Shown piece after piece: positions 19,636 to 22,890 of a stretch of DNA of 59,708 nucleotides (its first letter is position 1; every line of letters begins with the position of its first letter). The stretch lies in contig CANNCS010000008.1 in the NCBI GenBank assembly GCA_947503115.1, positions 1 to 59,708 of the forward strand, written 5' to 3'. Origin of the DNA: an uncultured Marivita sp. (GTDB taxonomy: Bacteria; Pseudomonadota; Alphaproteobacteria; Rhodobacterales; Rhodobacteraceae). The notes below the pieces were generated by a model. That model did not search any database and was not told the origin of the DNA. It saw nothing but the letters and a program-made list of their open reading frames with translations. The position numbers and the translations under genes were made by a program.

Positions 19636-20418
19636 TTAGGCCGACAGCGATACCCAGACCGGCACATGATCAGACGGTTTCTCGCGTCCACGTAAGGCGC
19701 TTTCGATCCAGCAATCGGTCATCATGTCCGCGCAGGCGGGCGTCAAAAGGAAGTGATCGATGCGAATACCATTGTTCCGTTCCCATGCTCCGGCCTGGTA
19801 ATCCCAGAACGAATAATGCCCGCCGCCTTGGGTGCGTGCCCTGAAGGCTTCTGTAAAGCCAAGGTTCAGGATGCGCCGGAACGCGGCCCGAGATTCGGGA
19901 CGGAACAGGGCGTCTTCTGTCCATTGCTCGGGTTTGGCAGCGTCTTCGGTTTGCGGAATGATGTTGTAGTCGCCCGCCATCAATGCGGGCATTTCATCCG
20001 CCATCAGATCACGCGCCCGCGCCTCCAAGCGTTTCATCCAATCGAGTTTGTAATCGTATTTCGGCCCCGGCGCCGGGTTTCCATTTGGCAGGTAAAGCCC
20101 ACAAACGCGCACCGCCTGCGTGTCGCCGATCACGGTTGCTTCGATCCAGCGTGCCTGTTCGTCACTGTCGTCTCCGGGAAGTCCGCGCGTTACATCCTCA
20201 AGCGGAAGTTTCGACAGGATTGCCACGCCGTTGAAGCCTTTTTGGCCGTGGGTTTCGACCGTGTAACCCAAATCCTCCAGCGCTTCGCGTGGGAATGCCT
20301 CATCAATCGACTTGATCTCTTGCAGCAGCGCCACATCCGGCGCGCTGTCGCGCAACCAATCGGTCAGAGCGGGCAGGCGGGCCTTGACCCCATTGATATT
20401 AAACGTGGCGATTTTCAT
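19636..20418 (-). CDS. xthA: Exodeoxyribonuclease III
   Basis: The 260-residue AP endonuclease/3' exonuclease repairs abasic sites. Motifs of the endonuclease/exonuclease/phosphatase fold: MKIATFNINGVKARL, the metal-binding Glu in LLQEIKS, NGVAILSK, MAGDYNIIP, and the C-terminal RIDHFLLTP and KPSDHVPVWVSL. Start at 20418 from GGGGAGACC upstream. Monocistronic; its 5' region is the DnaA-box-rich segment shared with the repeat-protein gene. Confidence 0.93.
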   Translation of the reverse strand: MKIATFNINGVKARLPALTDWLRDSAPDVALLQEIKSIDEAFPREALEDLGYTVETHGQKGFNGVAILSKLPLEDVTRGLPGDDSDEQARWIEATVIGDTQAVRVCGLYLPNGNPAPGPKYDYKLDWMKRLEARARDLMADEMPALMAGDYNIIPQTEDAAKPEQWTEDALFRPESRAAFRRILNLGFTEAFRARTQGGGHYSFWDYQAGAWERNNGIRIDHFLLTPACADMMTDCWIESALRGREKPSDHVPVWVSLSA

Positions 20419-20570
20419 ATGCGGTCTCCCCGATTGCCCCTCTATCCCAAGAAGGACGACCCCAGACAAGCCGGGATCTTGTCGAATCGAATGGGTTTGG
20501 GCCGTGAGATTCGCGGATTTGTGCGATCTGAACGAACCCCAATGGCATCGCGATGCGGTCTACGAAAAAC

Positions 20571-20654: not shown

Positions 20655-20748
20655 CTCCCTGAAATACCCGTTAAGCGATAACTATTCTTCTCAAATACAA
20701 CCTAGTCGTGTCAGCGTTGATCCATCAAACCAGCCAGAGGAGGCCAAC

Positions 20749-21417
20749 ATGACCGCAGTTCGTAAACTCCAGATTACCAGTAACCCGCTGCAAGACCAGC
20801 AAATTTCGGACATCCACGGCGATATTCACGGCGGCGACGCCACAGCACTATTCACCTCGGGTTCAGCCCCAATGGGGTCCGCTGATGCTCGTTTGGGGGA
20901 TGCGGTCGATATGTTCACTTCAGGCTCTGGCCCTGTCACCAGCGCGACAGCCCTGTTGGGCGACGCAACTGGTCTTTTCACTTCCGGTTCTGCTCCGCGT
21001 GGCACCTCAGCCAGCACAGGTGATGCAGTAGAGCTTTTCACCTCTGGTTCCGCTCCGACCACATCTGATGCCCGCACTGGCGATGCAGTCGAGGCGTTCA
21101 CCTCTGGTTCCGCTCCAACCACATCTGACGCCCGCACTGGTGACGCAGTCGAGGCGTTCACGTCCGGTTCCGCTCCAACCACATCTGATGCTCGCACTGG
21201 TGACGCGGTCGAGGCGTTCACGTCCGGTTCCGCTCCAACCACATCTGACGCCCGCACTGGTGACGCAGTCGAGGCTTTCACGTCCGGTTCCGCTCCAACC
21301 ACATCTGATGCCCGCACTGGTGACGCGGTCGAGGCGTTCACGTCTGGTTCCGGCCCGGTGATGGTCGAAACCACCACAGATGGTGAAGGCTGCGCGCTTT
21401 TCACCTCTGGCTCTTAA
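20749..21417 (+). CDS. FTSGS tandem-repeat protein
   Basis: The 222-residue protein begins MTAVRKLQITSNPLQDQQIS, then GDIHGGDATAL, and the rest is ten copies of a unit centred on FTSGS[AG]P; copies 4-9 follow the 20-residue form DAVEAFTSGSAPTTSDARTG. The protein ends exactly with a tenth FTSGS. It is acidic, Ser/Thr/Ala/Gly-rich, has one Cys (near the C-terminus), no signal peptide and no membrane segment. AGAGGAGG precedes the ATG at 20749. The repeats may be followed by modification, cleavage or assembly; none is shown by the sequence. It may belong to a Rhodobacterales DUF family (DUF6749 comes to mind, unchecked). The gene downstream is likely its partner (62-base gap, strong ribosome binding site). 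Confidence 0.8.
   Translation: MTAVRKLQITSNPLQDQQISDIHGDIHGGDATALFTSGSAPMGSADARLGDAVDMFTSGSGPVTSATALLGDATGLFTSGSAPRGTSASTGDAVELFTSGSAPTTSDARTGDAVEAFTSGSAPTTSDARTGDAVEAFTSGSAPTTSDARTGDAVEAFTSGSAPTTSDARTGDAVEAFTSGSAPTTSDARTGDAVEAFTSGSGPVMVETTTDGEGCALFTSGS
20839..21417 (+). repeat. In-frame tandem repeats, period 60-63 bases
   Basis: The Phe codon of each FTSGS lies at 20851, 20914, 20977, 21037, 21097, 21157, 21217, 21277, 21337 and 21400, so the spacing is 63, 63, then six times 60, then 63. The units around 21016-21350 are nearly identical in DNA with mostly synonymous changes (GAC/GAT, GCA/GCG, ACC/ACG), which indicates recent tandem amplification under selection on the protein. No spacers: not a CRISPR. 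Confidence 0.95.
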
Positions 21418-21478
21418 TCGACGCTTTGACCCGGGGCGGGGTGGCTCGTCCCCTTATACCCCCAAGGAGGATTGGATT

Positions 21479-22555
21479 ATGACCAACGTCATCCACCTAA
21501 CCCCCCCGTCCCGGATCAACCCGCAAGAAGCGCGCCTTGGCGCGCTTCTGAGTTGCTTTGCTGAATATCGTCGCCACAGTGACGACGTTTTCTGGCTTAA
21601 GGAAAATGCAGAAGTCCTGAATATTTTGGAATGCACCACAACCAAGCCAGGCGATACAGCGTTAGAGGCTTATGCGAATTTTTATCAAACGGTCGAAAAA
21701 CGCCTGCACTTCTTCCCCCAGTATTATCGCTTCTTCTTATCGATCACGCTCGACCTCGAAGATTTGGGGATGTCCGGTGATGCTGGTGAACGATTGGTCC
21801 ATTGGGCTCGGACCCAGGATTTGCCACGGGCAGAGCTTTCCGATTTGCAGCGAATGGAAGCGGTACGCCTAATGGCACGACGCGATGTGGCGCCTGATGG
21901 GGATGACCGACAGCTTGAAGACCGCGCACGCTATTTTATGGGGCGGTCAGACACCTTTGCTTTACCCAACAAAAAAGCCGCTTACGAGCTAACACATCTT
22001 GTCTTTTATCTTAGCGAATATGGCCGCTGTGACCCACAATTGAATGCTGACGCCAAGCGTAGCCTGCATTTCGCTGGCATCCTTGCGTTCATCGAACAAA
22101 ATGCTGACCTTCTGTCCGAGATCTGTATAGCCATGCACTACGCCGGAGAGGTGCCGCCAGTGCTGTGGACCGACTGGCTAAAGCGCGAAACTGCGTTGTT
22201 CAGCGTGACCGACGGTCCCAGTGTCAGTGTTCAAGACGACTACCACGAATTTCTGGTGTGCAATTGGCATCAGTCCCTAGTCGGCGATGCCGCATTTGCC
22301 AAAGGCTTCGTTTTTGATCGGATGCGATTTGACCGCAACGTCGCCCGTGCGACCCCGATGCGTGAAATGTCCGAAGCGATGTTCAGTCTCGATGATGCGC
22401 GTAGCGGCGATTGGATCAGTATGCGCCTTTACATGGAAGACAAGCTGTCACCCGAAGCGATGCAGGTTCTTGAACAGGCTGAAACTTCGTCGCAGCATTT
22501 CGAAGCGTTCTTTCACGGCTTTGCTCGCGCCATCCGACCCGGTGCACTGCACTAG
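21479..22555 (+). CDS. Unknown protein paired with the FTSGS repeat protein
   Basis: A 358-residue, mostly helical, acidic soluble protein starting MTNVIHLTPPSRINPQEARL. Clusters of aromatic residues and charged helices (YRRHSDDVFWLKENAEVLNI, VEKRLHFFPQYYRFFLSI, YELTHLVFYLSEYGRCD) suggest an all-alpha fold; no catalytic motif, signal peptide or membrane segment is recognisable. AAGGAGG lies 8 bases before the ATG. I do not recognise the family with certainty (DUF6902 comes to mind, unchecked). Being transcribed right behind the repeat gene, it may bind, modify or chaperone it. Confidence 0.7.
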   Translation: MTNVIHLTPPSRINPQEARLGALLSCFAEYRRHSDDVFWLKENAEVLNILECTTTKPGDTALEAYANFYQTVEKRLHFFPQYYRFFLSITLDLEDLGMSGDAGERLVHWARTQDLPRAELSDLQRMEAVRLMARRDVAPDGDDRQLEDRARYFMGRSDTFALPNKKAAYELTHLVFYLSEYGRCDPQLNADAKRSLHFAGILAFIEQNADLLSEICIAMHYAGEVPPVLWTDWLKRETALFSVTDGPSVSVQDDYHEFLVCNWHQSLVGDAAFAKGFVFDRMRFDRNVARATPMREMSEAMFSLDDARSGDWISMRLYMEDKLSPEAMQVLEQAETSSQHFEAFFHGFARAIRPGALH

Positions 22556-22566
22556 CCCAAGGGAGC

Positions 22567-22890
22567 TTACATTGAAAAACTGGTGCCGCATCCACACGAG
22601 GATGTGGCATTCGGGTTTTCGATTACAAAGCGTGCGCCAATCAATTCCTCGGAAAAGTCGATCACTGCGTTGGCCAGAAACGGCAAAGATACCGAATCCA
22701 CCACAACGCGTTCGCCCTGACCTTCAAGAACAAGGTCGTCTGCCAACGGCTCGTCCAGTTTGATCTCGTACTGGAACCCCGAGCAGCCGCCGCCTTCGAC
22801 CGCCACGCGTAAGGCTTTGCCTTCGGCGCTGGCGCCAATTTCCGACAAACGTTCGAACGCGCGTTCTGTCACTTTCGGTGGAAGCTGCAT
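22567..22890 (-). CDS. erpA: Iron-sulfur cluster insertion protein, ErpA/HesB type
   Basis: The 107-residue A-type carrier has the three conserved cysteines of the family (GGGCSGFQYEI and SCGCGTSF at the C-terminus), which bind an Fe-S cluster for delivery to apo-proteins. Start ATG at 22890 with GAGGG upstream. Divergent from dgt (83-base gap), convergent with the unknown gene at 21479 (11-base gap). ErpA versus other A-type carriers cannot be separated by eye. Confidence 0.85.
   Translation of the reverse strand: MQLPPKVTERAFERLSEIGASAEGKALRVAVEGGGCSGFQYEIKLDEPLADDLVLEGQGERVVVDSVSLPFLANAVIDFSEELIGARFVIENPNATSSCGCGTSFSM

Follow-up and report, generated by a model that had tools for sequence, protein, structure and literature searches.

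Several families of ribosomally synthesised and post-translationally modified peptides (RiPPs), among them the graspetides, cyanobactins and dikaritins, include multi-core precursors in which one leader is followed by a variable number of nearly identical cores that are each flanked by a motif, and the FxSxx-COOH peptides of the FxsA/FxsB type carry the motif F-x-S-x-x at their C-terminus. Here we examine two adjacent genes from an uncultured Marivita sp. (Alphaproteobacteria; Rhodobacteraceae), the first encoding a protein with ten FTSGS repeats and the second a protein of the uncharacterised family DUF6902, within a stretch of 59,708 nucleotides (GenBank assembly GCA_947503115.1, contig CANNCS010000008.1, positions 1 to 59,708, forward strand) referred to throughout as the window. 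On the enzymatic side, comparison is invited by MslH, the lasso-peptide epimerase of MS-271, which is reported to have a calcineurin-like fold and Ca(II) and is proposed to epimerise at Calpha by acid/base chemistry (PMC10406935), and by a member of the family DUF6895 that a paper cited in PMC13352647 (ACS Catal. 2026, 16, 1757) presents, by its title, as an epimerase acting in the modification of lasso peptides.

The pair, which becomes a trio in many relatives, is a real and widespread module, undescribed as far as the literature was searched. We consider it very probable that the first gene encodes a multi-core precursor and the second an enzyme that modifies its cores; that the pair is a RiPP-type module in which DUF6902 modifies the cores by epimerisation is a narrower proposal, for which we hold the balance to be about level. 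The module is well supported; its chemistry we infer.

A putative precursor with ten identical cores

The two genes and their parts lie as follows, with the signals read directly from the DNA:

20738..20743, plus strand: ribosome binding site of the precursor gene, AGGAGG
20749..21417, plus strand: putative precursor protein of 222 residues, in which a leader is followed by ten FTSGS cores, with homologues that adjoin DUF6902 in relatives
20749..20850, plus strand: putative leader region, non-repetitive N-terminal residues 1-34, first GDATAL included
20851..20865, plus strand: core 1, FTSGS
20914..20928, plus strand: core 2, FTSGS
20977..20991, plus strand: core 3, FTSGS
21037..21051, plus strand: core 4, FTSGS
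21097..21111, plus strand: core 5, FTSGS
21157..21171, plus strand: core 6, FTSGS
21217..21231, plus strand: core 7, FTSGS
21277..21291, plus strand: core 8, FTSGS
21337..21351, plus strand: core 9, FTSGS
21400..21414, plus strand: core 10, FTSGS, the final residues of the precursor
21464..21470, plus strand: ribosome binding site of the DUF6902 gene, AAGGAGG
21479..22555, plus strand: DUF6902 protein of 358 residues, a candidate enzyme for modifying the cores, with a predicted alpha/alpha-toroid fold (from Pfam, conservation and a structural model)

The ten FTSGS units extend across residues 35 to 222 at successive spacings of 63, 63, 60, 60, 60, 60, 60, 60 and 63 bases, each core preceded by the motif GDA[VT]xx, or by GEGCAL in the case of core 10. 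This bears out a preliminary description of the locus, made from the DNA alone, as encoding a 222-residue protein whose units recur every 60 or 63 bases and whose last unit forms the C-terminus. Tandem Repeats Finder returned a single row for the whole window (21010-21352; period 60, 5.7 copies, 91% matches, score 539). Compared pairwise, the codons of the ten cores are identical in 117 cases and synonymous in 108, with no nonsynonymous difference, against an expectation of about 29% silent among random single changes. Across units 5-9, of 20 residues each, 158 codon comparisons are identical, 42 synonymous and none nonsynonymous, as the same description had held for near-identical middle units differing mostly at silent positions, although it needs correcting for units 1-4 and 10, which differ in their spacers.

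From its sequence, the N-terminal stretch may act as a leader. No Pfam or NCBIfam family matched the precursor above its cut-off; against the FlmA-family RiPP entry NF052472 it reached 12.8 bits, below the cut-off of 30. The minus strand of the array is also open, for 192 residues at window positions 20826-21404, because of codon choice in the 60-base repeat, and carries no sign of a gene.

Cores homogenised within and switched between genomes

Among relatives, the cores of any one protein resemble each other, and those of separate genomes differ: FTSGS, FSSGS, FTSGL, FTSAS, FTCGL, FTSWS, FVSWS, FTNWC, FTTSC, FTTSM, MMCCS and others all occur, and Marivita alone has six core types. On a FastTree tree of 111 enzymes, core type has changed at least 63 times among 43 types (at least 55 times with F-type cores only), with the types of 15 rows assigned by hand, three rows left without a type and 'none' not counted among the 43. 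Core identity is 0.91 within a precursor against 0.55 between precursors, the former figure being lowered by a few wrong calls (cores FRPRR, YIPVG, FKQVK and FKTSN) among the 102 open reading frames (ORFs) delivered by the automatic unit finder. Repeat number varies among relatives, as the preliminary description had asked to be checked, from three units, the floor of the filter, to 20, and short precursors with two cores were also seen (loci L182, L185 and L195). The precursor of L138 was masked and excluded from reading, while those of L145 and L179 were partly masked.

In 95 precursors, each required to have at least three units with its commonest core, an identical core was found in 1342 of the 1428 pairs of units whose spacers were less than 40% alike. 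Likeness in these diverged pairs was 95-97% at core positions 2 to 5, 37-49% in the five residues before the core and 6-25% in the spacer, where the search pattern itself fixed F at 0, G at -6 and, for core position 3, the class of letter, and spacer likeness is low by selection, the five pre-core residues not having been selected on. Since whole-unit gene conversion alone would keep the spacers alike too, it is the pentapeptide that counts, and selection acts on the core. Such a pattern is that of multi-core peptide precursors; a structural ladder could account for some of it.

The partner protein and its conserved residues

The second gene starts 61 bases past the stop codon of the precursor, and its earlier portrayal as a protein of 358 residues, at this distance and with a ribosome binding site, proved accurate. 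Its product matches Pfam DUF6902 over the full length (573 bits) and also exceeds the cut-off of DUF6895 (79.7 bits against 23.8, residues 28-226), so the suggestion that both genes belong to uncharacterised DUF families holds for the second gene but not for the first. Structure prediction makes the protein nearly all helical, in line with that portrayal, with a predicted alpha/alpha-toroid fold, and no sequence relationship to PDB chains was found. Because DUF6902 is related to DUF6895, one member of which is reported by title as a lasso-peptide epimerase, the second gene becomes a candidate for the modification enzyme; the preliminary description had seen none nearby, and this gene itself is likely to be it.

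Among 95 of the 113 DUF6902 proteins (the remainder left out for brevity, not by residue, and the partial enzymes of L023 and L025 excluded), 19 positions are at least 90% conserved and recur in at least two of the three DUF6895 proteins aligned with them. Those common to DUF6902 and the three aligned DUF6895 proteins include Y169, H173, G182, D210, E214, Y255 and H256 (window numbering). H173 and D210 are both lost in only two of the 95, and these are the only two without a precursor: L181 4998-6071 (genome G328) and L197 4986-5996 (G079), which have lost other conserved residues as well and have no repeated-core ORF within 11 kb. The association, noticed post hoc, has a Fisher exact p of 0.0002, or 0.005 if five two-copy precursors are not counted, and L197 is a highly divergent member, so the co-loss amounts to one clear case and one weaker one. 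Both enzymes have apparently decayed or changed role after loss of the precursor.

A GC-rich hairpin of 10 pairs, followed by a T-rich tail, lies at window positions 21526-21549, shortly after the DUF6902 gene begins; the number of terminator-like sites found hereabouts is close to that expected by chance (4 found against 2.5 expected).

Linkage, distribution and genomic site

Across a survey of 394 Rhodobacteraceae genomes, DUF6902 is present in 108 and a match to the repeat protein of the window in 95, about a quarter, all of which carry DUF6902 (L205 and L206, whose genomes are identical to those of L035 and L036, were excluded from the statistics). The preliminary description had proposed a dedicated two-gene system, to be abandoned if the repeat protein turned up alone in many genomes; it turned up alone in none of the 95, and the proposal therefore stands. 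When the DNA of the 13 enzyme genomes without a precursor match was read by eye, ten had a repeated-core ORF directly upstream, five of these with two copies only and less certain; G328 and G079 had none, and in G179 the enzyme is cut by the contig end. Cores in the precursors that the match search missed include FTTSM, LMPTS, ALSPSC, MMCCS and YIAGL. The gap from precursor to enzyme is typically 50 to 75 bases across relatives. All 17 genomes searched from the same genus, the window's own included, carry the enzyme, as do 22 of 61 relatives overall, and the loci nearest to that of the window in our named collection belong to Marivita or to unclassified alphaproteobacterial bins. Additional precursor matches away from the enzyme locus (G093:C31:27469-27759, G290:C4:162-584, G067:C6:3-350 and G369:C135:8618-8845), some of them at contig ends, are possibly second precursors or assembly breaks inside repeats.

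The module is bounded by two genes that lie outside it, as judged by Pfam, synteny and the empty site:

19636..20469, minus strand: left boundary gene, Exo_endo_phos (exonuclease III-like)
22567..22890, minus strand: right boundary gene, Fe-S_biosyn (ErpA-like)

The exonuclease III-like gene flanks the module in 76 of 77 loci and the ErpA-like gene in 70 of 79, followed by a dGTPase-like gene in 72 of 79. Ten relatives that lack the enzyme were also inspected: the left gene was located in nine of them and has the ErpA-like gene beside it in eight, within about 360 bases in five and at about 880 to 1150 bases in three; the ninth locus is cut short. The module is a presence/absence unit at one fixed site, and the simplest reading of its history would be old vertical inheritance with losses. 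Neither a lasso cyclase nor a B protein stands beside the precursor, both window neighbours being Exo_endo_phos and Fe-S_biosyn; no search for them was made elsewhere in the genome.

A gene for an EamA transporter, a candidate exporter, follows the enzyme in at least 44 of 79 family loci. None was found in 16 loci comprising that of the window and those of its closest relatives, most of which are Marivita. The earlier remark that no exporter lies nearby is thus right for these 16 loci but not for the wider family. In the genus of the window the two-gene pair stands alone, and the nearest EamA elsewhere in its own genome is only 30% identical. Another gene, which we take to resemble flavin adenine dinucleotide-dependent monooxygenases, recurs about 2.4 kb upstream of the enzyme, beyond the exonuclease gene, in 29 family loci.

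Relatives of the DUF6895 family

DUF6895 is rare in Pseudomonadota, with matches in 13 of 398 genomes, 11 of them over the cut-off and several of these being DUF6902. Nine DUF6895 loci were inspected, three on Pseudomonadota chromosomes (L225-L227) and six on plasmids of Kitasatospora, Pseudalkalibacillus, three Streptomyces and Cupriavidus. In seven of the nine, the DUF6895 gene is directly preceded by an ORF of 65 to 143 residues; at the S. fungicidicus locus there is a 62-residue ORF with one gene between, and the Cupriavidus locus is ambiguous. Two of the short ORFs contain two tandem leader-plus-core units, L226 9910-10338 (GPWYIYKE / GPWFVLKE) and L227 7494-7907 (NYVYKGS twice).

Downstream of DUF6895, or fused to it in Kitasatospora, there is a second protein at four loci (L245 7983-9737, L246 6670-7317, L250 7660-8145 and L225 8629-9723), which in three of the four contains, close to the C-terminus, a Q-rich stretch that finishes in G-x-F-G. 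A Pfam scan of two of the separate second proteins gave no match; the protein looks like a second subunit that is absent from the DUF6902 module. On the Streptomyces fungicidicus plasmid, L249 3451-8688 is an unexplored, compact, RiPP-like cluster comprising a P450, the 62-residue precursor-like ORF, an unknown protein, two tandem DUF6895 genes and a Beta-lactamase-family hydrolase.

Proposed mechanism and alternatives

We propose that the first gene yields a precursor composed of one leader and ten five-residue FTSGS cores, each with a short motif before it, and that the DUF6902 enzyme, a predicted alpha/alpha toroid, would act on every core, most likely by epimerising the Calpha of a core residue through acid/base chemistry involving H173, D210, E214 and H256, perhaps with a metal. 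The cores would then be released by proteases encoded elsewhere, and the product may be exported, in many relatives, by the EamA protein encoded next to the enzyme. The multi-core precursor, which the preliminary description had raised as one of two options, is favoured by a core kept while spacers diverge, by varying copy number and by a partner related to a reported epimerase family with precursor-like ORFs near eight of nine loci. Three points weigh against our proposal: the label of epimerase is borrowed from a distant relative known by title; no protease is known, none having been recognised by eye among the neighbour clusters, where a search aimed at proteases was not run; and an AlphaFold2 model in which the precursor of a relative is joined to the enzyme of that relative shows the repeats in regular beta structure, with about two strands per unit of 20-21 residues, at a predicted local distance difference test score of ~55-79 (leader <50).

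The same module might perform other chemistry, with DUF6902 modifying the cores by, for example, a metal-dependent side-chain reaction comparable to those of LanC cyclases or protein prenyltransferases, whose toroid its predicted fold recalls. We regard this as unlikely without being far-fetched. Most cores are devoid of cysteine, so cyclisation or prenylation based on that residue would not be general; C216 is not kept in the three aligned DUF6895 proteins, and the equivalence with prenyltransferase residues comes from spacing, not from a residue-level structural alignment.

It is distinctly improbable, in our estimate, that the repeat protein forms a beta-solenoid, whether structural or self-assembling, for which DUF6902 serves as chaperone or assembly factor, with no peptide released. 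This was the other option of the preliminary description, and it now appears the weaker of the two: the beta-structured model is its main evidence, and stacked identical residues would favour homogeneous cores. The model is given little weight because AlphaFold2 is reported (PMC11795689) to produce unrealistic beta-solenoids for perfect repeats, 20-residue units included. A solenoid also leaves unexplained why the partner is homologous to a protein reported as an epimerase of peptides, and likewise the precursor-like ORFs beside DUF6895, the adjacent EamA gene and the two-core short precursors (L182, L185, L195).

A radical S-adenosylmethionine (SAM) enzyme encoded elsewhere in the genome, cross-linking the F-x-S of each core in the manner of the FxSxx-COOH peptides and leaving DUF6902 an accessory role, seems very unlikely. 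FTSGS fits F-x-S-x-x and stands at the C-terminus, as in FxsA peptides; set against this, no FxSxx family is among the NCBIfam matches of the precursor at E 1 or better, FxsB has no match above cut-off in the genome and three weak partial ones only, the one SPASM radical SAM protein found there is PqqE (L251 78-1151, G000:C109), and the cores of some relatives have no F or S. The idea of an F-x-S cyclophane is on these sequences disfavoured. A repeat expansion that is neutral or in decay and makes nothing functional, to which the ease of tandem expansion and a copy number of 3 (the filter floor) to 20 might point, is hardly credible, being refuted by the codon pattern of the cores (silent against nonsynonymous differences of 108 to 0 in the window and 3467 to 251 in unit pairs of relatives) and opposed by the ribosome binding sites and conserved linkage.

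In its boldest form, our proposal would make the module a new RiPP class across the Rhodobacteraceae, with a non-radical toroid epimerase installing a D-residue in each of 2 to 20 cores and a core exchanged as a whole from species to species, at least 63 times, in the manner of a signal or of a tag specific to the strain; this we put forward tentatively, as possible but rather doubtful. If true, it would assign a function to two uncharacterised Pfam families, bring a further RiPP class to a major family of marine bacteria in which 108 of 394 sampled genomes have the enzyme, and provide an enzyme capable of acting iteratively on the many cores of a single substrate. The uniformity of the cores inside a genome, together with their switching from one species to another, would also offer a natural test bed for the tolerance of enzymes to changing substrates.

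Comparison with known systems

With the FxSxx-COOH peptides the precursor shares F-x-S-x-x at its C-terminus, and differs in having no FxSxx family among its listed NCBIfam matches, in having no FxsB above cut-off and in its partner, DUF6902. LanC and the protein prenyltransferases resemble DUF6902 in its predicted toroid fold and through an E-x-C ... H pattern that recalls the prenyltransferase zinc site, whereas no sequence relationship was found in PDB chains and the cores here are mostly without Cys. MslH is reported to use His and acidic residues and is proposed to epimerise a ribosomal peptide at Calpha by acid/base chemistry, but its calcineurin-like fold, set against the predicted alpha/alpha toroid, would make the two at most analogous.

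The DUF6895 lasso-peptide epimerase, known by title, is connected by homology: DUF6902 passes the DUF6895 cut-off, seven conserved residues are shared, and DUF6895 lies near a short precursor-like ORF in eight of nine loci. The two families differ in that no lasso cluster stands beside the pair described here, whose precursor is multi-core, in profile length (289 positions for DUF6895 against 351 for DUF6902), and in the second protein of several DUF6895 loci, which is missing at the DUF6902 locus. To the graspetides, cyanobactins and dikaritins the likeness is one of architecture, with leader, repeated cores, flanking motif and variable copy number also present here; none of their enzyme classes is found among the window neighbours, and what further sets this module apart is that its five-residue cores are homogenised within genomes and switched between them.
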